From assembly GCA_905160935.1 (NCBI GenBank), contig CAJHZI010000518.1, positions 1,236,001-1,300,000 of the forward strand: a stretch of DNA of 64,000 bases. The letters run 5' to 3'. This stretch comes from Enchytraeus crypticus (taxonomy: Eukaryota; Annelida; Clitellata; Enchytraeida; Enchytraeidae). Shown here one piece after another: positions 5,440 through 41,800 of the stretch (the first letter of the stretch is position 1; every line of letters starts with the position of its first letter). The position numbers and the translations under genes are program-made. The notes beneath the pieces are model-generated. The model saw only the letters and a list, made by a program, of their open reading frames with translations. It was not told where the DNA came from and made no database searches.

Positions 5440-5990
5440 AATTAATAGGCCTACATGTCATCCTTGACAGGTCTGTAGACCTTTTATACTTAACTGAAAC
5501 ATGGCCGTCTCTCCTGATTTCCGGCCCACTGCTCTTCTAAACTATCTTACACCTCCTGATTATTGCTTTAAACACGTTCCTCTTTTCACTGGTCGTGGGG
5601 ATGGAATTTCCGCTATTATAATTTTAAATCCTCATTTTCTTCTCTTATTAAAACTGTCTTCGCTTTTTTGATGATATGTGCTTAGGCTAACAAGTGAATC
5701 TAAATCCTATAATTCAAAACTTAGTCTCCTGCCTCCCCAATGCTGCGCTATACTATTTTACTCCTCCTGAATATTGCTTTCAACATAGACTATACATATG
5801 TGTATATGTCCCTCGTTCCACTGGTAGCGGGGATGGAATTGCGCCTATTAATTAAAATTAATGCATTTTCTGCTCTTTAAAACTGCATCTTTCGCTTAAT
5901 TCTTTTGAGCACATGTTGCCTTGGCTTATATGTGCATCTAACACGTATCTCTTCTTGATAGGATATATACCTTCATCCTTGTCCAAGGCC
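5440..5990 (+). mobile_element. Decayed LINE endonuclease fragments, two in tandem
   Basis: The conceptual reading around 5490 gives LTETWLS-like residues followed by PPDYCFKHVPLFTGRGDGI, typical of the apurinic-endonuclease domain of CR1/jockey LINEs. The same segment occurs a second time, diverged, at 5756-5860. Both are broken by stops and frameshifts. Confidence 0.65.
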
Positions 5991-6009
5991 GCTTAATTTA
6001 CTTTCTGAT

Positions 6010-6085
6010 TTCTCTTCACTTCTTGATAACAAAGTTTAAAATTAGTCTTGTATCTCTCCAGTCAATTCCTATTCTTTCAAAAACC
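6010..6085 (-). repeat. LINE-A RT fragment
   Basis: The string attagtcttgtatctctccagtcaattcct corresponds to 12345-12375 of the large LINE-A copy, in the same orientation (minus). Confidence 0.65.
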
Positions 6086-6599
6086 TCATTGCAGTTTCCA
6101 TCAATGCCCGAAATGAATCGAGAATTAATCGAACAAATGTTCAGTGTGTCCACCATGTGCCCGAAGAACTGCATTCATTCACCCGCTGGAACCACTGAGC
6201 TGAGTCCACGAGTGTTTGACTGATCTCAGCCCAACGGAGGACAATGACTCGTTTAAAATGTTCAACGTCGTGAATTGGTTCACGATAGACTAATTGCTGA
6301 AGAAAACAGTAAATGATGGACTAGTAAATCGGTTTAAAATCAGGGGGGGGCTGTTAGGTGGCCAGTTGTAAGGTTCAGTAAACTCTGGCAGGTTTACTTT
6401 CATACAGCTGATCATATGACATGAAAATTACATATCGGCGACTAATGATAATTTCTCAAACATTTGTAGTAGTATCTCTTAGATATTTCGTAATTTAATA
6501 GATGAGAGAATTGTCTTTAATTTCATGTATCAAGTATGTCCTATTCCAGTTTGATATTCACATTCACATTCGAAATAGAGGTGTTTTTCAAAATATCAT

Positions 6600-12985: not shown

Positions 12986-15628
12986 AAGGTATATACTAGG
13001 AAACTGGAGACATTGGAAATGTGGATCTGGAGAAGAATGGAGAGGATTAGTTGGACTCAAAAGGTTACAAATGAGGAAGTCCTGGAGAGAGTTGGCACAG
13101 ATAGACAGTTGATAAATGTATTAAGAAATAGGAAGAAGAGATGGATAGGACACATTCTAAGGGGGAAAGGCCTATTAAAAGAGGTTATAGAAGGTAGAAT
13201 GGAAGGAAAAAGAGGCAGGTGCAGGCCGAGATTAGGTATGTTAGATGATTTAAAGACCCACTCATATGTGGAAATGAAGAGGAAGGCAGAAGACAGAGAA
13301 GAGCGGAGGCGTTATGTACCATGGACCTGCCAGTAGGCAGTGCACTAAGAGATATAATAAAGGTTTAACGTCTGTTTCCTCATACAAGGATGATGTCAGG
13401 GACGTCCACCCATCACATGTCACTGCAAATCGATTCACCCCAAACGATCTGAAAAACACTTTCTGAAGTGACGGAAAAAGATCCTAAATGGTGCCAGTCC
13501 GGTAATCAAAAAACAGTCAGGCAAGATGAAAAAAGTCTATGGTGGCAAGAGATGTATCTTTAATCTACAATGGAAAGTGGAAGAAGTAGAACATGAGTGA
13601 AGATCAAGAGGCAGAGAGTTCTGAACAGTAGGAGCTCAGAATGAAAATGAACGTCTACCTAAGTAAAGTAGAAACCTATTTCTATATTGCGAGGATTGCC
13701 CACCCCTTTGTGATGAGAGTGTCCTAGAATAAAGATGAAGGCAATATTACAATAAATGATACGAAATTGGAACCGGTAAAGTGTTTCTAATATTTAGGTC
13801 ATACTGTAGCAGGTGATGGGAAATGTGAGACTAAACTATGCAGTAGGATTGTTCAAGGAAATGAGGCGCTTTCGATAATAGGAAAGAATTTTTAACACAA
13901 GATTTAAAGTTAGTCACAAAAATAAACATAGTGAAAGCCTTGATATGGACCATGCTTTTATATGGATGTGAAACATGGACCTTAAGAAAGGAAGATATCA
14001 GGAAACTAGAGCCATTGCAAATGTGGATACGGAGAAGAATAGAAAGGTGTAGCTGGACTCAAAAGATTACAAATGAGAAAGTTCTGGAGAGAGTTATTAC
14101 GAATAGACAGTTGATATATTCATTAAGAAATAGGAAGAAGAGCTGGATAGGTCACATTCTAAGGGGGAAAGTGTGACTACTAATAGTAGTCATAAAAGGC
14201 AGAATAGAAAGAAATAGAGGCAGAGGCAGGCCGAGATTAGGTATGCTAGATGATTTAAAGATCTACTCTTAACTTAACATTAAAGATTTAATGTCTAGTT
14301 TTATATTAATGAGGTTTAAGTCAACCAAACCATCTAGTCCTCCTCCTATAGAGATTATCTTTATCTCCATTAGGTTCAGATATTAAATATTTAGTTTTAA
14401 TCGTAAGTGTATTATTAATTTAATAAGTAGTATATTGCAATACTTGCTGTATTTACGTAGCAGTAAAGAAAATATGAGCTTGAGGCATTTTGTGGGTTAA
14501 TATAATAGAATGTCAATTTTAAACATGATTCTGAAAAAATTAAAATTAAATTTTTGATTTATATAAATGATATTTTATTCGTTAAATATTCGTTTATAAC
14601 TTAAACTACGATTTATAATTTAAACTACTTATTTTGACTGTTAAACTTTAGGTGGCACAACTACAGGGCCTTATAGATCAAATGAACTTGTTGAGTTAGT
14701 TAATATTGTGTCCATTATATTAAGGGAAGACAGACTATAGGTATGAATTTTTGGTTAGTCTTGACTCTATAATAAAGCTCTTGTAGTTACATTGTTAGTA
14801 GTCAACATTAATGGCTTGGAGCCAGTGGCGAAGTCGGTAAGATACTCGACCGCGGATCAGTATGTGCGGGGTTCAAATCCTGGGCTTGCCTGTCACTGAC
14901 ATCGCTTTCGAGTGAGGAAACTAATGTTAAACTTAGCTTTACCAACTTTTTTAATGCTGATAAACAATTTTTTCTTAATGTTGCTGTTGTGTAACAGCTC
15001 TTGATGCAGAGTTCTCCGGCTTGAACATATCGGACAAGAGTAGAGGAAGGTAAATTTTTTTAATAAATATATATTTAGTTGGAATAAAATAAATTTGTCT
15101 TTTATTGTTATAAATCAAATTCCCCGTACTATCCCCATGTTGTGTCCGTCCCCGTGTGGTATCCGGCTTGCTTGAAAAATAGACTAACCGTGTAAATATG
15201 CACATGTCGTAGAAGGCGCATAAAAACAAGAACAAGTAAAAAAACATTTCAGCATGTATTTTACGTCGTTTTGAAAAGAAATGATGGCTCTTCAAAATGG
15301 CATTGGCAGAAATTTTATGTGGCCTCTTCGCTATTATTTTTATAGAGATAATTTTACGCTACATTTAACACGCCCGAAATCCTGTACTGGAAATTTCTTA
15401 TCTGACCCCACTCATATTTGCAAAACTATAACTTTCACGTTATTAAAGATATTCAAACGAAATTTCTCTATGTTTGGTACAATTGGCTGCCAATCAAGTA
15501 CTGTAAATTTCAAGAACGATTTCTGTCGACTCCTTACGACTTAACTCCTTTCCCCACCTTTTTATTGTATAAAAAGGTGGGGTATATATATATATAGATA
15601 TATAATATATATATATCTATATATATAG

Positions 15629-18900: not shown

Positions 18901-21900
18901 GGTACAAAAACCAAAAAGTAAATTATGACTTGTTTTGTATTTCCAATATATTCTTGAACAAAGATGCTAACCTTACCATGCACGTTATTAATTCAGTCTC
19001 TATTTGCTGAGAAAAAGCAATCGTATGTAGTACATATCAAATATTCTACAACTGCATTGAAACTCAATCACAAAGAATATTTGTTAATAATTTACTTAAC
19101 TAGTCAAATGAGTGTTATTATTTTTATACGCATAAAGCTGTTACTTTCGCTTACTTCGGCCATGGCTAATACTACATTAATATAACTACTCTAGTAGTAG
19201 TATTTTTACTCCCCGAGCACATTTTTTGACTTCAAGTATAAGAAATCTGGTTTATGTACTTTGAAGCCATTGTAGTGCTATTTTTTTATTCAATTGGGGA
19301 TGTATCTAAAGTGATTTGAGAAATTGAAATCTTATTTAATAATGATGGCTGTCTGTGTGAGTGCGCAAATATTTATTTTTTGCTGCACTATTACAAGTAA
19401 ATACTGCAACTTATTGCATTTGACAAGTAATCTTAAGTTATATTTACTATTTGGACTGTACCATGGACAAGATGTGTATTATTCCAAATCGCTAGTTGTG
19501 CATTTAGAGATATTTTAATAAATTGTATAATGTAAACTGATATATGATTTGCAATTTAATCTTAAAGTAAGGTTGGAATAAAAGGTAATTTGACGTTGCT
19601 TGGCAACTTAGCCCAGTAACAGGTGACAAAGGTTTATTTTGTCACCTTGGAAACTGAAATTGATATATTTGCATTCATATTACTATTTATATGTTTAAAA
19701 TGACCTTTGTGCAGTGAGATATTGTGTACACTTTAGTATATTTGCGGCAGAACTGATTTTAGAATAAAATGGCAAGGTTATGAAGCTAAAATATTAAATT
19801 AAGTAATGAGGAAATGCAAATCAACATGTAATTAGAAGTTTAACCTTAATATATTGAGATATAATTGTTGGCTATTGGTGTATTCATGTAAAACTGACTT
19901 CAAGTTATATATAATATGACATTCAATCAAAAGAGTAGATTATGTAAAGCAATAATAAAAATTACACGCATAAGATACATGCATGCAACGCAACCACTCG
20001 TGGTGTTGGGTGGAGAAATGCTTATGAAGGGCTTGATTCTGATTGGCTCTTGAGCATGGCCTCGATCAATACTATATTACCAGAGGACAGTCTATAGAAT
20101 TTTAGTTCACTCCTGAACTCTGGCTTCTACGGAATTACTAGCTGAACTAGTCTAAATATAATTCTTAATGAATTATTGCGACGAACACATAAACTAGTAG
20201 ATTTCATACAAGCTTCTGAATTTCTGACTGCATTCGTAGGAAGTACTGCTACTATACACCTTCTATAGATCGGTGATAGTTATCACGAAAAATACGAAAT
20301 CTATATTAGAACGACTGTGCCTCACGGGATTGCTGGTATTGTGTGGAATTGTCGTCTAACCCTCTATAGGTCGGTTAATCACGACACCATTTCAATATCT
20401 CAATTTGTTGGATTTGTTGGACGTATAAATCCTTGATTGTACAAGAAACGCCGATTACTAGAGTTGAATCTAGATGAAGCGTTTCCTTGTCAATTCAGGT
20501 AGAAATAGCTGCATTGCAACACTTGGTGTTGGCAGTGAAGATAGAAGAAGGAAGTGAAGATAGAAGAAAGAAAAATTGCAGACACAGTAGATGGTACATC
20601 GCTTTCGAGTAAAGTGAAAGCGTTTTTAACCAGAAAACTTGAAGTAAGGCGAAGCATTGTTTACAAGCTGAAACGAAAGCGAAAAATTACCAAAATTGTG
20701 TACTACGTTTGCACTTTGTCTTCTGTTACAGTTTCAACTGTGCTAGCAGGTTTGTCGACAATTGTAGGATTTTCCGGTATGGTTATTACCATACTTTCAA
20801 TTACGAGTGCATTACTGCCATCAATTAGCTTGAAATTCAATTTACAAGATGAAAGTAATAAATTAAATGCAGAAATTGAAAAACTAAATAAACTTAATGA
20901 AAGATTTGACTTTGTTGTCAGTTGTAACGGAAATCTTACCGAGGCAGCCTATAATCAGATTATTTCTGAATTCACATAAAATTTGTTAATACATTTATTA
21001 ACGAATTTAAATATCGCAATTTACGGCGACGCTTACATCACAAATTTTTCTAGCAGAGAATCTGAAACGTAATGAAATCCTAAATCAAGAAACGTTAAAT
21101 TTTTTCGTAATATTAATTTCAAGTCTAAATTCTTTCGATCTGGGTCTAGATCTCTAACAAGTTTTGAAATGAGTCGCCTAATTTTCATTAAAGGTGTACC
21201 CTCTTCAGGTGTTGCTATTAATTTAGCATGAACTAGATTTATTTCCAAATCCATAAACATATTTCTCGGTAGTTCTTCAATTATTGTTAGAAGTAAACAT
21301 TTCAAATCGGTCGTAAAAACTGAAAGAATTCTTTCCACGTCAGAATTAATTTCTTCATCCTGAAATAATTTAAGATATTCTAAGGTAATATTTTGCAAAT
21401 TATTATATTTCCTAAGAAATATTTTGTTGTACTTATTTTGTAGGCCTTGGTCTTCAGAATATTTAGTCATAATGGTTAATACATGAAAACAAATTGCCAT
21501 TAATTTCTTCAAATCAATATTGTCTTTCATGCCAGCCATCTGTAGATACTTCTTGTTTAGCGCATCAAATTTTTCAGTTGGGAAACCAACTTTAAAAATT
21601 AAAATATGCTTCATATCTAAATCTCCGTTCATTGATCCACCATTCACACTAAGTTTCGTATCAATATTGTTCTGTAGTGCAATGTCATTAGCCACTACGT
21701 TTTGTTCTACTTCTTTTAAGATGGCTACTCTCAAATTTTCGCCAAATTCGTTAACATAGCGGTCGCAGTACCCCTTTGTGATGACGTCCGCATCGGTTTC
21801 TGGAGGATGTTTAACATTTAAAATTCTATTGTTGCTCATATTAATGTCTCCAGTGATATCTCCTCTAGTTTTGTCAACTTTTACACTGTCGAAAGAAAAG

Positions 21901-24900
21901 GGGCGTCAGATAATGTAATTTCCCCAGTCTTCAAATATACCCTTTCCATTGTACATGTGAGTATTAGATTAACTTTTGTCTGAGGGTTGTTGTTAAATAA
22001 ATTTACCACATTCGGCTTAACATAATTAAGAAATGACACCGCATCGACCCCCTCTTTACCATCTATGGTGTACTGCTTTGTAAATCCCTTTAGTGATGAT
22101 TTAGTTTCGCGAATTTCGTATTTTTTCTTAAAAATACATATTAAACACTGATTTAAGTGCATCCACTTTTTCATTTATTTTCCTTCTTGCAGGTTCAGGT
22201 ATTAAATTAATCAAAAAATCAGCAAACTCACGTAATTTAGATTTGGTTTCCCCCTCAGTACAGTTTACCTTAACAGCTGAATGATCCTCCATCTTCACCA
22301 CAGGTAAATGTACACTGGTCTGAAGAAGTGGAGTTGTAATATTTGGAACGTGAGTATCTTGAATTGGTTGTTTCAACAGAGCTATTAATTCAGCCTTACG
22401 CAGTCTTGAATATCCACGCAACCCTATTTCTCTCGTAATAGTCTTCAGTTGAACAACAGTTTTAGTTTCCATTTTATATTGTCAAGAAAAATATATTTAA
22501 ATAGAAATCAACTTTTTTCAGAACATTTCTCATCTTGTCTACCAATAGATGGCGCTCGTGGAATGACTACCACTCCATTATTGAAGCTGAACTGCAAAGC
22601 CAATGTACAGCAGATTATTATTAATAGCTGTATACATGTAGCTGAGGTTGACAGTTGAACAGCCATTCTCTGCTTTGCAGCTATTTCTCCACTTGGAGAA
22701 TTAGCTGAGGTTTACAGTTGAACAGCCATTCTCTGCTTTGCAGCTATTTCTCCACTTGGAGAATTAGCTGAGGTTTACAGTTGAACACCCATTCTCTGCT
22801 TTGCAGCTATTTCTCCACTTGGAGAATTACCTGAGGGTTACAGTTGAACAGCCATTCTCTGCTTTGCAGCTATTTCTCTTCTGCTGTGAAAAACTTTCTG
22901 TAAATGTCTACGTGTCAATTCATCAATAAGAATACGCAGTATCCAGTAAATAGGATCTCTATTTTCAAATCAAGAAATTCATAATTGTAGTTCCTTTATG
23001 AAACAGCCAATATATTAACTGTTACCCAATATAAAAATGAACAGGTAACCAGAAAATATATTAACTGCCTCTTTTCAGTGTTAGAGGACGTTATAAAATT
23101 AGACACGCTTACCTCTTTCTTCTCTCTGTAACGATTCTATCATACTTATGCAATCATCGACGTCCCTTGGCTTATCATATGTTTTTATTGCTTACATCTA
23201 CTCCTCTAGGGACCAAACTTTTCTTAAGCTCTTCGTAACACAAACGTATTCTTTCTTGACATTATGAAGCATATGTTCCATATCAATAGGCCCATCTGTT
23301 TTATATCAGATATATGTCTCCACTTATTCATGTAACTCTTTCCTTTACAACTAGACTACGCTTTTCTACTGGTATTAATTCTAAAATAAACGAGTGTAGC
23401 TTGAGATATCCTTAATAAAATCCTTTTGTTCGATATATTTTCTAAATGCAGCAATTTTTTCACTGTGTCTGCCTAAATGATAGCGCATGTTGCAACTAAC
23501 AAGTTTGGTCGGCTTGCACGTCAGCACAGCAGCTGACAAGAGGCTATTCACTTTTTATTAGGCAGCAGTCGAGAGCAGACACAGCTGAACCAAGTTCGCT
23601 TCAGCAATGAACACCTGGCTGTGTTATAATTAAGCCGCTTGTAAAACGAAAGTAAAACACAGCAGTTGAGAAAACTGATTTAAGCTAGCAGTAGCAGAGT
23701 GGTACTCGATCCATGAAACGCAACATCATCTGATTTAGATATAAGCTAGGTTTCAAGGTAAATCAAGACAGAAAATAGAAATGAGCTACGCTCAAGGATG
23801 TGCTGTGCTTAATATTCATGTAACATTTAAGCATAAAGGCAAATATAGAATTTAGCTACGTTTTTAAGGCTGTGCTATGCATCAAATGATTACTGTTCAT
23901 TTGATTATGCATCAAGGCAGAATAATGCTAAAATAGAATTTAGCTATGTGTTTTTAAGGATAGGTTATGCTTGAAATCAAAAATGTGCTCGGGGAGTAAA
24001 AATACTACTACTTACTCTGTTATGATTTCACTGTTATAATTATAACTACACTGTTATGGATCTATCTTTCTCTTCAGTCATTTTTCTCATTTCTAGGTAT
24101 ATTCCTATAATGTAGAACTGCTTGCAGTTCAATTCAAGTTAACTTGTATCTTGTTTTTTAAAATTATTTTTTTAACTTTATGAAGCTTAATAGATATTTT
24201 TGTAATGATTTTAAAATTACACCAATTTTATATTATAAATGTTCATTTTTTGTGTACGATAGGTATAAAGCTACATCTTACAATATCTACTTGCAACCGG
24301 CTATATGTGGCTCAATAGACGTTAGGTATCTGTCCCAGGTATCTGACACCAAGTGTTTTCATTATAGTATAGGCTTGTCATTACTCAAGTTATTCGACCG
24401 CGGATCAGTATGTGCAGGGTTCAAAGCGCCCGTCACTGAAGATATCTAAGTTTGTTATTTCATTTGGGCTATATTACTGAAAGTGATGATGATGAGTTAT
24501 CCATTCAGTCGAAGCCGACTCTTGGACACTTTATGAACTATCTGTCTCCATGTATCACGATTTCTTACTGCCTCCCTCAAATCCGCTATGCTGGTGTTGA
24601 GGTCAAATTCTACAGAATCAAGCCAACGCGTTCTTTGACGACCTTTCCTCTTTTTTCCACTGACCTGTCCTAGCATAATTGATTTCTCAATTGAACTTGC
24701 TCACATGATATGTCCAAAGTATGACAACCTTCGCTTTGTGATCTTCCCTTCAAGAGAAATACCTTGGTTTTATGCGATCTAGCACATCTCTATTGTTAAC
24801 TTTAGCCGTCCACGGGACTCGAAACACGCGTCTCCAACACCAAAGCTCGAAAGCGTCGATTTTCCTTCTATCCGCCTTTTTTAGCGTCCAACCTTCGCAT

Positions 24901-30900: not shown

Positions 30901-33900
30901 ATTGATTGCTGGGCAACTTTCTTCTTTGTCTGATCCTTGTCCCTTCGACTTTTAGAGCCGTGAACTTTCACGGTACCTTAAACTAAATAATCTCGATTAG
31001 CTCGGCTGCAATTTAACTAGTTACTTTCGTTGAATCGTTTTAATCGAACCCAAAGGCCGTAGACCCGTTGTTCATCGTTATGTTAGTATTATTCTTATTT
31101 CTTTACCTTAAAAAATACGAATAATATTTACATATCTGCTTAAATAGTCTTAATTTAATTGCTAATTTACTACTAATTTTATTTGTTTTGCTGAAAAGTG
31201 TTATTTGTGATAAGCTGCTCTAATATCTTAAACTGTGTCTGTGTTTTGTTTTAGTGTTTATTCTTTTTCTAGGTATAGAGTGTTCTGTTTATTTCAGCGA
31301 ATATCTTACCTACATGTCGAAGCAAAATATTTGAGATAAATTCCAATGTAAGATCGTTACTGATAACAACTAGTATGAATTTTTCGAAATTTCGATACAA
31401 CATGAAATTTTTTACATACCGACTTAACTTAATAATTTTGTATTCTGGTCTAGACTTAATGATCAGGAATACACTATAGATGCTATTTTTATACTTGGAC
31501 AAGTAATTTCTTTCAGACAGTCATCGACTGTTTTATACAGTATTTTACAGTTTGAAAATGTGATAGTTATTATGTTGTGATTATGGTGTCTATTGTTTAT
31601 TTATATACAATACAAAAGGGCTTGACAACACTACACTGTACTGTTACCCTGATTGAAACACTACGTTGTAATATTGACCTCATTGATACAATGTCAGTTT
31701 TGTTTTATTATTAATGAGAACATTTTCTGTTTACTGTTCTCAAATACTAACCAAATTCTTTATACCTGTCTAGTGATTTTGGTTGTATTTTAGGATGCTG
31801 GGTTTTACAAAAGTATTTCGGTTATTACGGAAGCTTAAAAAGGTTTAAATTTATTTGTTTGATTTGTATAGTAGCATTTACAAGTACAATAGGCATGATA
31901 CACTTTAACACTGAAGCTGGCTGCAAATATCGGCCTAATATACCATTTAATTTATTAAGCTATATTCAGATTATTAGATGATAATATTAATACAATGGTG
32001 CCCTTGTATCTCACTTTTCAACGGTTTTGATTTTCTTGCTTATAGTACTGTTTTCTAATCATTCAAATGTGAAAATATTTTAGCAAAAGCGACTATTGTA
32101 ATAATAACCAAGGACAATTACGATAATAACAATAATAATAATAATAGTTATAATAATAATGATAATAGTTAAGTATCAAAACAAAAGACGTCTCAACAAA
32201 AGTATGATAAACTTTTTCGTTCGCAAATTTGTCAATTAATCTTACCTAATCTCTGTGGAACAAGATTAAAATGACAAAACCCTCTTATTATTGTTGCTGC
32301 AAAGTAATATTAATTTATAATTGAGTTGTGTAACTTCTATTTAATGATGGTGTGACATTAATTCTCCAATATGAATTTTTTCAGCCACTGATTGGTCATA
32401 ATAACTTCACAGATCTACTCTACCTCTATGAGAAATTCTACAGACCACTACCAGGTTTAATTAGGTTTAAAATTATTTTTGGAAGCAATGAATCAAAATA
32501 GTTGTCGAATACAACAGATTGTTGATAACATTCTTCTACATTATTGTAACAATGAAGAATTTGCTTGATTAAGGCAAAACAATTTAGTTGATTAAGCATT
32601 TAATAAATTCCATTTATTAAACATTATCTAGTTCTAACTATTTCTGAGTTGTATGAAGGGTATTTAAGTGTGGCTATATATTTATGCCGTTTTTTACAGT
32701 ATAGCTTCTACTTATTGTTTTGTACCATGGCCAAGGTACATGTTCATACTCAGAGTCAGCTTTCAGGCTCCATAAAGAGCACTCCATTGATCAGCAAATT
32801 AATCCCTTCACAAAGGCCGTATAGGCTACTTGATGTAGCCTATAGCGTGGGAATAATATGGCTTCTGAGGTGGTTTCCCGTTGCCTTCCTCAGTTCTTGC
32901 CCTGTCGACTCGTACGACACGTGCAGTTAATTCGTCAGTATCCCTAACACTAAATTCTATTCTTCGTGTCCCTGACACAACACGGGAAATTATATATTTT
33001 ACTATACTATTGTATTGGTGTTATATACTATCCTCTCTTAACAAAATTTAAAATCAAGAGAAGATGATAAGGATGATTGTAGAATCTAAGCCTGGATTGA
33101 TATGTCTATTTAATCAATTGAAGTCGAAGGCATCTTATGTATTTCTGAATTCTGCGAACTCTGGAATTTGGAAACAATATTATATTTGTCGCATTATTAT
33201 ATTGGCTGGAGCCACTTGCGATGTCGGTAGGATCGTAGATGGATCTCCCTTCAGTTATATCGCTTTCGAGAGATGAAACTGACGGTAACATCGGCTTTAC
33301 AGCTTTAAATAGGTTGCTAAGCCAGTGGCACGATAAATTAGATTTCAACACTGCGGATCAGTAGATGCAGAGTTCAATTTTATGTTCACAATCGTAACTG
33401 ATATGCATTCGAGAAATGAAACTGACGTTTAACTGGACTTTATAATGAAAGAGCAAATATTTGTAAAGGCCTTTTTATTGCCATTATATCTTATGTTATG
33501 TTATGAATGTTTTTCATGTTGTAAAGAAATTGTGATTAAAAGTTTTTTGTCATGTTCACTGAAGGATAATATTAATGTGTAACAGTAGGAATGTCGTAAC
33601 AGTAGGGCAATATGTGCTTTAATCGACAATTTTAGAGAGTTCTTATCCTGTGATTCAAGCACTAAGTCAAGAGAAATAAGTTTCATCTATTTTAGAATAT
33701 CAACAGGAGACATGATGTGTTTCACTATCAGCTAGCTGAGTTAAAGATAGTAGACTGCTAGTGTAAATAAAGTAACGTAGTGTTAAATTAAATCATTTAG
33801 AGTACTTCGTCAGTTTATTTCAGCCAAGATTTGATATTTCTTTAGAGAGTTATGACAAGATTTGATATTTCTTTAGAGAGTTATGAGAAGTTCAAGGAGG

Positions 33901-35423
33901 ACATTCACGAGATGTTTCCTGTTGTTATAGATACGAAGCACTTGTCAACAATCATGCGTCTGGTTAGTCTATGTAAACTTTATTCAGCATATTCATTGAA
34001 ACATACCAAGTCACTACTTAAATATTTCTAGACTGTCACGTAGGTACATTGTTAATTGTGTCATTGAATCGTATTGCAAGCTCTAACAATTGTGTAAAGT
34101 TATATTTTGTGCACATGAATGTTAAACATTAAAAAAGCTTTGCTAAACTTAAATGTTATCAGTGGTATTACTATAGTATTGAAGTACAAATGTAGCTCGT
34201 TAGTGGGAATCAAATAGTAAATGTTGTAGTTAGGATTTAGAGACGCATTCTTTTTCTCTTAGAAATTAAATTTATATTGCACATTATCTTTTTAATTTAG
34301 TTTTTTGAAGATGGTTTTATTATGCATTACCTGTGCAAGCAATATTTCAGTCATCTCATTTAATTTAATTTTCCTGTTTGTAGAACTTGTTAGCAAGCAA
34401 AGTTCATCTATAACATTAATCTCCTTCTTCATCTTCTTTTTCTTCTTCACTGGTTCAATCATCATTTAGACATCACTTGACTGTTAACTGTGTTACTAGT
34501 TGACGTTGAAACATGTATGGCCGAGATTCTGTAAATCTTTGAAATTCGGCCGACTGGTAGGGTTCCAGTCTGCCTACAATATGTGAAGTGAAGTGAAATA
34601 TTTCGGCTGAGCACGTCCTGAGCTGTTTACGTTGAACCTGTGCTCACGTGAAGTGGGTTGCGCGTTGACTGACATGGGCTTTGAACTCAGTCCTATGCGA
34701 ATACTCAAACCGTTACGCCAAATACCCTCCTCTGAAGGGATATGGCGTAACATATACGCCTCCTCGTGATAACATTAATGAGCAAGACATATTTGAACCA
34801 TTTTACCTCAGAAAAGCAATGTGGTAATTAATAACAAGTTCATTGTTAATGTAGAATTTTATAATTTTTATATTAAACAAATGTGTTTTTCAGTCGCACA
34901 AAGAAAGCGGTCTGTTTAGTTCTACTGGACTTTCTCAGCTGTACGAATCGCTTAGTGGGTATGATGCAATCGATAACTAATAATTAATTATTATTGATTG
35001 GCTGACACTATTAATTGTGTCAGCCAATCCATATATTAATTTCTGCTTTCAGGCCTTGCATGAGTCTTGTCTTAAATACTGTATTAGTTTAAGATCTAGG
35101 TTATCATGGTGAGTTAATATTATAAGCGTATGCCCGAATGTAACAAATAGCAAGGGCTGTGTTCCTCGCTGAATGTGTATATGCTGAATGTGTTATGTCT
35201 GTGACCTTTACTGTGACCTTGGGCAATGAGCTTGCCAGACTTACATTAGTTAGATTAGTTTCCATCTGATACTGTATGATAGCCTGGCTCAGCGCAATCA
35301 ATAGTGATTTGAAAGATACAAACGTCCCATGGGAAGAAGCTCTGACGCTTTCATATGGATCTAAGTGAATGGAAGTACAAAATGTTCCCGCCTTAAGTTC
35401 TATTCAGAACTCAAGAATCTCTC

Positions 35424-35463
<40 letters not shown>

Positions 35464-37422
35464 ACTATATTGCACTAAGTGGTAGGTCCAAGGTATACAT
35501 TGCTACTCAAGTGCTGTTTTCGATCCATTAGTTAATCCCTTCACTAAAGGTTATGCTTTATACCTTATACCTCAAGCTGTAGGCTTAGCCTATAATAATA
35601 TGGCTCTGCGGTGTTTTCCCGTTGCCTTCCTCATTTCCTTCTAGCCGTCTCTTACAGTTTACGTTTGTTCTATTCTTCAGCGTCTCGGACACAACACGGG
35701 AATGGCATAAGTACAATAGCTATAGTAGGCCTAACAGTACAATAGTAACTCATGAATGATACAAATAAACGATACTCAGGGAGTCGTGCGTTTAAGTCTC
35801 TGCTGACGCTTCTTTGGCAGTATCCTCATGATACTTTAATTAAAGGGCTACTCTCACTGCCTCAGATGACAACATCATATATAAACATCAAGTATTATAG
35901 TGCTGAAGCCATTTCGATGAGAAAAGCTTTTATTAGATGGCGGTAATTCAAACTTCTTGATAATTAGTGTGATCAAGAGGTAAGAATGGAAATGAAGTTT
36001 AAGCACTGATCACAACACCTGGAAGCCAGATATAAAAGAGAAACCACATTGTAAGTTTGACCTTATATAAAACCGCTCATAGAAAATGAAAGGCTGATAA
36101 TACAGTAAAAGTAAAATTATAAGCTTGGCCAGGTGCTTGAGAGAACGATTACACATTTTATATGGTGAATGTTTACTAAGTTTCGAGAAAGAGTTAAGAT
36201 CATGGAACTAGGTCATTAGGCTTCGTCACTTTTATTAAGTGAGATCTTGGCATATATACTGTATAACTTAGCTTTAGATAAACTGTTCTTTCGTGTGTGT
36301 TATGTGTAGGGAGAAGGCTAGATCCTACACTTTATACACTCCTTCCATAAAACATGATGACATCTCTAAAGGCTACGGTAACAAGCATTGCCCACACGAG
36401 GCTGGCTATGACGCTTTCATGTGTGGCTATGGTAAGCTGTAATTAGTTTCTCAAATGTATATTTTATAAAATCATAAGCTTGAATATTGAAATTGAACAT
36501 GTAGTATAATATCAGCAGTGATAGTGATTTAAATCTGGATACCAAAGATGTTAAAACTTGTCCCAGCTATATATTTTATTGTAGGTTTAATTATTGCTGG
36601 CGTGGCTACGCTTGACTTTTATTTGAAATTTTAAGTTTAGTTTTTTCTATTGGTTAATTAATATTCAATTAGTTACTGTTTATAAATTGTTACCATATAT
36701 GTTAACAAGAGTTACCTATAAATAAGTAAACTTCAACGATATGGTGACTTAATTAGAAAATAAATGTGTATTCAAGAGTTAGTATATTATTTCTTTACCT
36801 TATTTTTGCAATAATGATTTGAGTGTACTTGGCCCCTGGCAGAGTTACAGCAGTGATGAGATGTAATACCCGTCGACTACTTTAGGACTAATGCTGTACA
36901 TCTGTTTTCGTTTCCTTCTGAAAAGTAGTCTGTCATGTGCTGGTTTAATTTTCATCATCATCAGTCAGGTCGGGATACAAATAGACTGTCTCAAATCCTC
37001 TCTGTCCTACACCACACCACCAGCCAATCCCCTATTTGAGACTTTTCCATTCGTTTAAATGTTTGTAGCATTTCTGGAGCCTAGGCGCTGACCAACCGAA
37101 TGCCCTTTCTGACGTTGGGCTTGTCTAATTTTATATAATATTATGCTAAATGGTTTATTGACCTAGTTTACAACCTAGTATGACAAATTTTAATTTCATG
37201 TTGATTTAGTATATTATATATTTAAATTTATTCAAACTCTTTGTGTAAAGTAGTTTTAGAGATTGATTTCAGCCATGTAATTGCTATGTAATTTTTCATT
37301 GTTAATAATAATAATTTCTGGAGCCCAGAAATTCGGTTGGTGAGAGAAGCTCTCACCAACCGAATGCCCTTTGTGACGTTGGTTTGAACCTTAGTACTTT
37401 GTAGCCTAATATATACAATGTT

Positions 37423-38802: not shown

Positions 38803-41800
38803 GGGTGTCCAGATAGATCGTGAACGATTTTGAATGACTGCCATTTTTAATCCACTAGTAACAAATTTATAAAAATTGTCATTTAGTATTTAATAATGTC
38901 TCCTTTATTCTTCAGTACAGCGTCAAGTCGATCATGCATCGAGCCAATTAGATTTGTCAGAGTTTTCAGAGGTATCGATTTCCACGCCTTTCGAATCCGG
39001 CGTTTCAAGCTGTTCAATGTCTGCGGTTCAGGATCGGCATAAACCGTTGCCGCCATAATACTCCAAACATTTTCTATCGGTGACAAATCCGGAGAATTAG
39101 GTGGCCAGTCCTCTGGTGAGATATATCCATTAATGTTTGTGTTCAACCACTCGACTGACGCTCTTGATGTGTGTGCACGTGCACCGTCTTGTTGAAACAA
39201 TCCTTCGCCGTTATTACGAAACAGCTTTGTAGCTGTTAAATTCGTACATACAACTGTTCGCTGGAATGCTGGTTTGACCTCTTTCTCCAGTATCTCATTG
39301 ATGTAATAAGTCGAATTAACTGAAGTTTTATTTGGGATGATATGAAGTTTTGTTAATCCGCGAGCTGTAATACCACCCCACACCAGAACTGACGGGCTGA
39401 ACTTCACCTGTGGCGCGCACGGAACAGAAGTTTCTTGTGATCCCCATACTACATCGTTCTTATTGTTAGGTACGTAGTAAAGTTTGAAAGGTGATTCATC
39501 AGTGAACATGACACGCGACCAGTCAATATCTTTAAACTTCTTCGCAAAGTTGACTCGGCGGACTTTATAAGCACTACTTAACTTTGGGACCTTTTGTCGT
39601 TTAAAGCATTTCCATTTCAGCGTCGTTCGCATATACTGTCTTATTGTCTCTTTGCATCCAGCAAAGCGTTTGTCTTTCAATCGACGTGCTAACTTTCGCA
39701 GACTCTGTCCACGCACATATTTAGACTGCCTAATCAGTTTTTGAGCGGCAGCAGTCAGCACAGACTTTCGACCGCCTTGATAACGACTCTGCAGCGTTTC
39801 GTTTGGATTCTGCTTGTAGCGGTTGGCCCACTTGCTAATCCACGCTTTACTACGACCTAGTTTTTTTGCTATAACGCCATAACTATACTTTTCTTCCAAT
39901 AGTGTAATAGCTTGTGCTCTAATTTGCGCTTCGTTTAATGTTGCCATTGCCTAATCAGTGATACGCCGTTTATTTACTGCACTGTTGCGGCAGTTTTCTG
40001 TTTACGCACATTTTGATGACGTCACGGCAAATGACGTCAACACTTTGAAACGTAAGTTACAAACCTACAGTATTTTCCCTGTTATTTACAATTGAACAGC
40101 CTATCTGCCAGTATCAAACTTTCCACATTGTATTGTGCATAACATATAATTTTTTGCATTCAAAATCGTTCACGACCTATCTGGACACCCTATATAAACC
40201 AACAGACCAACAACTGCATGTGTCGTAAATGACGACAAAATAGTACTAAGATCCCAACCAACGTCAGAGTGATCATTCGGTTGGTGAACGCCTATGCTCC
40301 GGAAATTGTTACAAAATTTTCTAACTCCGACTTCTATTAAACTGGGATCTAAGGGATGATGATGATGTATTTAGAGTTATTAGGAATTTCAGACGTGCTC
40401 TTATTCAGTTTGATGTTGCAACTGTAGGTCTGTGTGTTCGTGAAAATCAATGTATCTTCTGTACAATTTTAGTATCAATTAACATTGTTTGGTTCTTAAA
40501 TATATTTGTAATAATAAATAATTATGTGTTTCAGTTTTCCTCCGCATGGTTCATATTATGGCCGCTGCTGAGATAAAGTAAGTAGTCTGTGTCTTTCTTT
40601 TTATTTATCGTTATAAAGCATTACACCTCTTGATAGATGACCTTGTGGTAATTCATATATATATATACATTAATTCATCGTGGGGAGTTACTATTGTGCT
40701 GCCTACCTCCATATCGTTGATAGTCACAATTTATTTAGCCTATATCGTCTAACATTCTTTCTATTATCTTTATATAGTATTACACCTCTTGATAGCCAGG
40801 TTGAATGTTGACTACCTTATTGTCTAACTCTCTTTGATGTAAGTGTGGTAACACATAGCCTAATCCGCTCTGAAGTAAATAAAGATAGCAAGTTAACTCC
40901 CGTATCAGATTGCAGTAAATCTTAAGAATTTAGCGATCAGTCTAAGTGCTTGCCGAGGAAAGAGCCTGTATTACATATCAGTAAGCTCTCTGACTGAGGA
41001 TCAGTAAGTGCAGGATTCAAAATCTAGTGCTTGTCCCATCACTGACTAGATGATGGGAATAGATGACCTTGTGGTAATTCATCGTGGAGAGTTACTATTG
41101 TGCTGCTTAACTACAGTTCGTATGCGCTACTTTACAAACTAGCTTGGCAAAGTTTTCTCCTCTGTGTTGCCTTTGAAAGGGCGCTATTTCTAAACACTAG
41201 ATTTTTGTCAATATAGCCATCGTGTTTAAGCGTTGCTTTCAAAATATTCATCAGAAATTAAAGAAATGTGTATAGTATAAGTTATACATCATCAATCATC
41301 ATCATCGTCATCTTCTTCCATTGAATCCCAGTTTAACTGAAGTCAGAATATGAATAAAAACTTTTCCATTCGTTTTAGATATTCGTTATGGGAAATTGTG
41401 TAGCAATTTCTGGAGCCTAGGCGCTTTACTAGCTTAATCTAGTAGAAATCTTACAATATCTGGATATTTTACCATATGTGAATATTTTAAGTAGTTTCTA
41501 GATTTCAGAGCTTCGATTGCTGAAATGTTGTTGCGTATGTTATAACTCAGATCTTACCAAGATGTGCGACCTCTCTCATTCACCGAGTACATGACTGCAG
41601 CTAAACCACACGTTAACATCATTAACCTCATCAGAGCCGGTATTCCTTCCATGGTAAGCTCTTATGTGTCACGTAGCATTTCTATTAACTAAACTTATAG
41701 CCACTCCTAATGTTCATGCTGTGTGTCTAATGGCTTCCAAACACTCACGTGATGTTTGTTAATAAGACTCCTTTCCTTTGTACGGTGGCAAATGGCATTT

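Follow-up and report, generated by a model that had tools for sequence, protein, structure and literature searches.

Ends and contents of the element

The window analysed here is a 64,000-nucleotide stretch of the Enchytraeus crypticus genome (assembly GCA_905160935.1, contig CAJHZI010000518.1, positions 1,236,001–1,300,000), which contains at 19193–24012 an element with inverted ends and a 6-bp target-site duplication (TSD). This element is very probably a fossil Polinton/Maverick copy of a subfamily with AGT-repeat ends that was inserted in an intron, internally deleted and interrupted by a piece of a repeat resembling a long terminal repeat (LTR). The left terminal inverted repeat (TIR; 19193–19236, + strand) starts with AGTAGTAGTA and is the remainder of a once longer one. 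The right TIR with its inner part (23622–24012, − strand) ends with TACTACTACT and is 92–96% identical to the ends of three other copies in the genome (C445, C396 and C331). The ends are complementary at 34 of 34 bases (19193–19226 and 23979–24012), and their alignment extends to 49 and 48 bases with one gap and two mismatches. Because the last five bases on the left also fit the start of the foreign repeat, 44 bp (19193–19236) are taken as the safe left TIR. TACTCT directly flanks both ends (19187–19192 and 24013–24018); at equal base frequencies, agreement of six bases at a given position would arise by chance with a probability of 1 in 4096. The inverted ends with TACTCT on both sides that were described in a first-pass annotation, made from the sequence alone, are real on this evidence. 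Two features by which Polintons/Mavericks are recognized, AGT-repeat ends with TIRs and a 6-bp TSD, are present in the window copy (AGTAGTAGTA and TACTACTACT; TACTCT), and ends of the former kind are found in other copies as well. Only ∼3.5 kb of the element's own Polinton sequence is left.

Three reading-frame regions lie where the first-pass annotation had placed them: a membrane protein (20545–20979, + strand), a fibre-like protein (21033–21905, − strand) and a Rho_N/SAP-like protein (22128–22481, − strand). The first is the two-helix membrane-protein gene of a Polinton (20571–20979; 62% identity to residues 10–147 of the transmembrane frame of a 15-kb copy, C205, described below), whose start codon was lost at the repeat junction. 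This protein has a weak likeness to SLATT_fungal (E = 4.5e-4), and its counterpart in C205 (L040:548–991) a weak likeness to DUF4231 (E = 9.3e-5), both below the Pfam cut-off. The second is a tail-fibre-like gene (21033–21892) that was recognized from 143 scored genome matches, a PHROG profile and the C205 fibre frame. It aligns to the latter from frame residue 43, which is the 36th after its ATG, and is without approximately the first 35 codons. The third belongs to an amino-terminal polymerase-B-like remnant in two frames (21891–22472, − strand) with the Rho_N/SAP-like domain first (Rho_N, E = 6.9e-8). The remnant is 81% identical to frame residues 158–234 of the polymerase-like open reading frame (ORF) of C205; it continues in another frame (21881–22174) and is cut at 21891. 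A separate SAP-like gene, one of the three distinct cargo proteins proposed earlier, was rejected from the alignments to longer copies, in which this frame forms the amino-terminal part of the polymerase-like gene. Searches for phage relatives found none, either for the SAP frame or for a piece of the polymerase.

Comparison with the proteins of the relatives gave no match in the window copy to the integrase or the major capsid protein at E values of up to 1e-3, and the packaging ATPase and protease-like genes were likewise not found. For the integrase this is the outcome expected of a deletion. The earlier statement that replication and capsid genes are absent holds at this threshold for the capsid; for replication it is not entirely accurate, as the polymerase amino end is present. 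With neither an integrase nor a polymerase body, the remnant is unable to move or replicate on its own.

The polymerase amino end is joined to the fibre gene at a deletion junction (21891–21892, − strand) with two shared bases (TC). Among 29 related loci (L010–L038), the alignment to the window stops at 21892 in 27, at 21888 in L014 and at 21890 in L033. On the left side the alignment starts at 20568–20572 in 28 of the 29 loci and at 20792 in L012, and none of the 29 aligns across either the 20568–20572 or the 21892 point. In copy C104, polymerase amino-terminal and fibre pieces occur in the same order and orientation 4.5 kb apart, separated by a capsid-gene fragment, a small frame and polymerase frames. 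A 200-bp query across 21891/21892, for which the best 40 of 426 candidates were scored, was matched over its whole length by the window itself only. At each of the remaining 39 scored places only half of it is matched (38 the fibre half and one the polymerase half), so that several copies sharing the same internal junction, as in a mobile family of short Polintons, were not encountered among them.

The left-hand discontinuity is explained by a piece of a high-copy repeat that is not Polinton sequence (19237–20571, + strand), which has kept its 5′ end and lost its 3′ end. Over ∼1.35 kb it is 82–87% identical to six loci (L002, L003 and L005–L008); a seventh, L004, is truncated where its contig stops, and all seven aligned repeat loci share the start TATAAG. 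Genome matches of the repeat form several same-strand pairs ∼6.9 kb apart (in C575, C359, C452 and C6), and we infer that it is LTR-like because such pairs resemble the two LTRs of a retrotransposon. The window holds one piece only, the right end of which abuts the membrane-protein gene directly. The element was previously described as complete; the interruption by this 1.34-kb piece had been missed.

Two further features lie on the right-hand side. A tandem repeat of four copies at 63-bp spacing (22576–22878) is located beside the polymerase amino end, and copy C575 has a similar sequence in the same place. The segment 23108–23479 (− strand) is a relic of a 242-residue gene seen in C104 and C575 (tblastn E = 4e-8, 30% identity). 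In the window copy and in C575 this gene (L041:3696–4424; L057:2060–2361), to which no family could be assigned, adjoins the polymerase-like gene; in C104 it is placed on the membrane-protein side instead.

Related copies in the same genome

The Polinton/Maverick family is abundant in this 524-Mb genome, with 143 fibre-frame matches scored of 805 candidates. Approximately 40 of the 143, counted by eye, have a frame of at least 395 codons and no stop inside the match. A search for ends with a longer DNA query from the right end of the window element gave 52 matches (from the best 40 of 109 candidates scored), including 12 inverted pairs that are 2.6–14.6 kb apart.

The copy C205 (612360–627504) is 15,145 bp long, with a 485-bp terminal repeat at 99.2% identity. 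Its genes were called from open frames and Pfam matches, the element being read through in pieces. The polymerase-like gene occupies two frames; its start matches Rho_N (E = 1.1e-6), and a further piece is endonuclease VII-like (E = 1.2e-4). Motifs ExoI, A and B occur in order in ORF 1 and motif C in ORF 2, and it is on their order and on the place of the gene that it is called PolB. A 125-residue frame, without a match in the Pfam scan, might at a guess encode an SSB-like protein. The integrase frame is open and contains rve (E = 3.8e-13) and Chromo (E = 2.5e-7) domains. There are also a phospholipase A2-like (PLA2-like) domain protein (E = 5.5e-7), a double-jelly-roll capsid protein (PF21738, E = 5.9e-41; E = 3.4e-30 for the C104 fragment) and an A32-type ATPase (Pox_A32, E = 1.3e-5). 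A protease-like frame matches Peptidase_C5 at a weak E value of 0.015 only. An adenovirus PX-like frame (E = 0.0013, below the Pfam cut-off) is followed in order by the fibre gene, the two-helix membrane protein and an AT-hook-like protein, the last with a weak match (E = 0.045). A 248-residue frame was taken for a candidate penton protein, its best match (0.036) being unconvincing, and frames of 291 and 102 residues had no matches in the library scans. The first-pass annotation had proposed a search for longer copies with the same ends that carry polymerase, integrase and capsid genes; C205 carries an integrase gene, a capsid gene and a polymerase-like gene.

Both ends were read by eye, from printed letters, in 16 copies including that of the window. 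The 6-bp TSD is perfect in 11 of these (the window, C166, C421, C475, C765, C118, C365, C396, C445, C575 and C746), which answers positively the earlier question of whether other insertions have such duplications, and it agrees at five of six bases in two (C182 and C331). The count leaves out C104, C369, C674 and C41, each with one end, and C197, which has no end with sequence.

Two other copies are shortened. C575, the nearest to the window copy on the right half among 15 loci compared (95% identity over 22279–22815 and 85% over 22699–24012), is a derivative of 8.0 kb whose deletion is not that of the window copy. Its polymerase-like frame is kept to residue 248, and no match was found in it to the 125-residue frame, the integrase, the PLA2-like protein or the major capsid protein. 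C365 is only 2.57 kb long and retains the polymerase amino end, the membrane protein and a second SAP gene. Its middle (L073:2252–2787) is a 536-bp high-copy repeat with at least 39 other copies at 95–97% identity (of 450 candidates). In the window copy, C575 and C365 alike, both ends and the amino end of the polymerase are retained.

The fibre gene of C205 (L039:7183–7899 with L040:2–499) and of other copies is ∼330–400 codons long and encodes phage-tail-fibre-like repeats; in three copies that were read its product has 328, 396 and 398 residues. All seven aligned members match the PHROG family phrog_2710, `tail fiber protein', with E values of up to 0.1 and a best value of 8.3e-11, in agreement with the tail-fibre-like repeats noted at first pass; the frame of the window itself reaches only E = 0.003. 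A profile search of public data with the fibre alignment returned 19 proteins; 13 come from contigs of less than 5 kb, and none has a more specific name than `hypothetical protein'. A scan of viral_contigs with the fibre protein gave two pattern stretches and no relative. The PDB searches of this analysis as a whole found no useful relative. The AlphaFold2 model, computed from four sequences, is poor (mean pLDDT of 55), with a carboxyl part that is predicted to be helical. This part has no Pfam match in the window frame and a weak, chance-level match in P0001. The gene product is a plausible attachment protein.

Host gene and origin of the window copy

On the + strand downstream of the element, two exon pieces match the CAF1 ribonuclease family (PF04857) at 32334–32498 (E = 9.3e-7) and 33846–34028 (E = 1.2e-7), and a third at 36317–36424 does so below the Pfam cut-off (E = 0.0046). 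In the PDB, the piece at 33846–34028 has PARN as its sole match, at a weak E value of 0.77, and that at 36317–36424 matches nothing relevant. A piece with a DAEFSG motif near 15003 has no family match. The CAF1-matching exon pieces make it most likely that the surrounding gene is of the PARN/PNLDC1 type and that the element occupies one of its introns. Further along, an open frame of 355 codons (38883–39950, − strand) may encode a Tc1/mariner transposase.

The family, left uncertain by the first-pass annotation, is settled as Polinton/Maverick, and the history of the copy may be reconstructed as follows. A Polinton inserted into an intron of the CAF1/PARN-like ribonuclease gene with duplication of 6 bp of target, as its ends and TSD show, presumably by means of the rve integrase of the family. 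A deletion, the junction of which has 2 bp of shared sequence, would then have removed everything from the interior of the polymerase-like gene through the start of the fibre gene. Judged against C205, the loss would comprise most of the polymerase, the small unassigned frame, the integrase, PLA2-like and capsid genes, and the ATPase, protease-like and PX-like genes. It was probably a single step, and several steps are possible. The LTR-like repeat would have landed 44 bp inside the left end, and its 3′ end would have been lost along with the left inner end of the Polinton, including a second SAP/AT-hook-like gene and the membrane-protein start codon; the order of these events is conjectural. 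A large deletion after insertion, rather than before it, is favoured because the junction is unique.

Some observations weigh against this reading. The TSD is missing in three of the 16 copies (C205, C785 and C256), among them the yardstick copy C205, in which the flanking bases (ACGAAG/AACGAT) form no clean duplication. The polymerase body (L043:2407–5697 and 5634–6278) went unrecognized by Pfam, by the PHROG polymerase profiles and in PDB searches; the scans of it gave only Rho_N, the endonuclease VII-like match and some unrelated weak matches. Furthermore, a decayed second copy of the junction could be missed among the candidates beyond the best 40 of 426.

The deletion might instead have arisen in a replicating form, the resulting short, non-autonomous genome then being integrated by the integrase of full copies, in the manner of a defective interfering genome. 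The other two shortened copies, C575 (8.0 kb) and C365 (2.57 kb), have both ends and perfect 6-bp TSDs, they share with the window copy the retention of both ends and the polymerase amino end, and C205, a fuller copy, has an open integrase frame. Against this, the window junction is single-copy among the 40 scored matches, the breakpoint of C575 differs and the 536-bp repeat in the middle of C365 fits decay in place, so that we consider integration in trans unlikely. The broader proposal that the Polintons of this genome repeatedly yield short genomes that lack the integrase and capsid genes but retain both ends and the amino end of the polymerase, some of them integrated in trans, seems to us similarly doubtful.

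The first-pass annotation had offered two alternatives, a deletion derivative of a larger element and an independent compact family. The former proves correct: there are longer copies with ends of the same kind and 6-bp TSDs, C205 has integrase, capsid and polymerase-like genes, and the junction occurs nowhere else among the 40 scored matches. A compact virus-like family with only three genes would account for the three reading-frame regions between intact ends. However, these are pieces of genes that longer copies with ends of this kind also have, the junction was seen only in the window among the best 40 of 426 candidates, and the SAP-like gene is frame-broken and without its body. The compact family was rejected on its junction, single-copy among the 40 scored matches, and is extremely improbable. 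We also considered whether the fibre-like protein serves the host and is retained for that reason, for instance in defence against related viruses. The frame has no stop in 268 codons and gives dN/dS values of 0.28–0.49 against 21 of 29 fetched copies, seven of which carry stops. The comparison was made with matches of exactly 804 nucleotides (six copies were not entered and two were dropped for their other length). However, the 14 stop-free copies among themselves give a median of 0.52 (75 of 91 pairs, dS > 0.02), so that the low values may be a trace of selection that acted on the family while it replicated, before the insertion, and the gene is now without its original start region. Retention by the host is highly improbable, and an internally deleted, LTR-interrupted fossil Polinton remains the preferred reading.

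Comparison with known systems

The window element itself is an ordinary fossil; what is unusual is the phage-like fibre gene of its relatives. An apparently new compact virus-like element was resolved as a deleted Polinton, which illustrates that the genes found between two clean ends can be a misleading guide. The wider use lies in the family behind the window copy, an animal Polinton with a phage-tail-fibre-like gene. If the fibre is an attachment protein, as we infer, the formation of infectious particles by Polintons would become more testable. We recognized no publication as reporting this Polinton family, although a literature search cannot show that none exists.

The fibre-like protein resembles phage tail fibres (phrog_2710) in its repeated short motif and differs from them in that its gene is carried by a Polinton in a eukaryotic genome and its carboxyl part is predicted to be helical. 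Adintoviruses are defined in part by a chromodomain integrase (PMC11071296). C205 is like them in its rve integrase with a C-terminal chromodomain, its PX-like frame (E = 0.0013) and its double-jelly-roll capsid protein, a likeness at the level of these domains. Vertebrate Mavericks have (AGT)2//(ACT)2 ends and perfect 6-bp duplications, and 96% of their copies are degraded (PMC8097293). The present family shares with those elements the AGT-repeat ends, TIRs and 6-bp TSDs, together with the integrase, double-jelly-roll capsid protein and ATPase found in C205. Unlike the vertebrate Mavericks as described in PMC8097293, in the main text of which the words `fiber' and `phospholipase' do not occur, C205 also carries PLA2-like, tail-fibre-like, two-helix membrane-protein and AT-hook-like genes.

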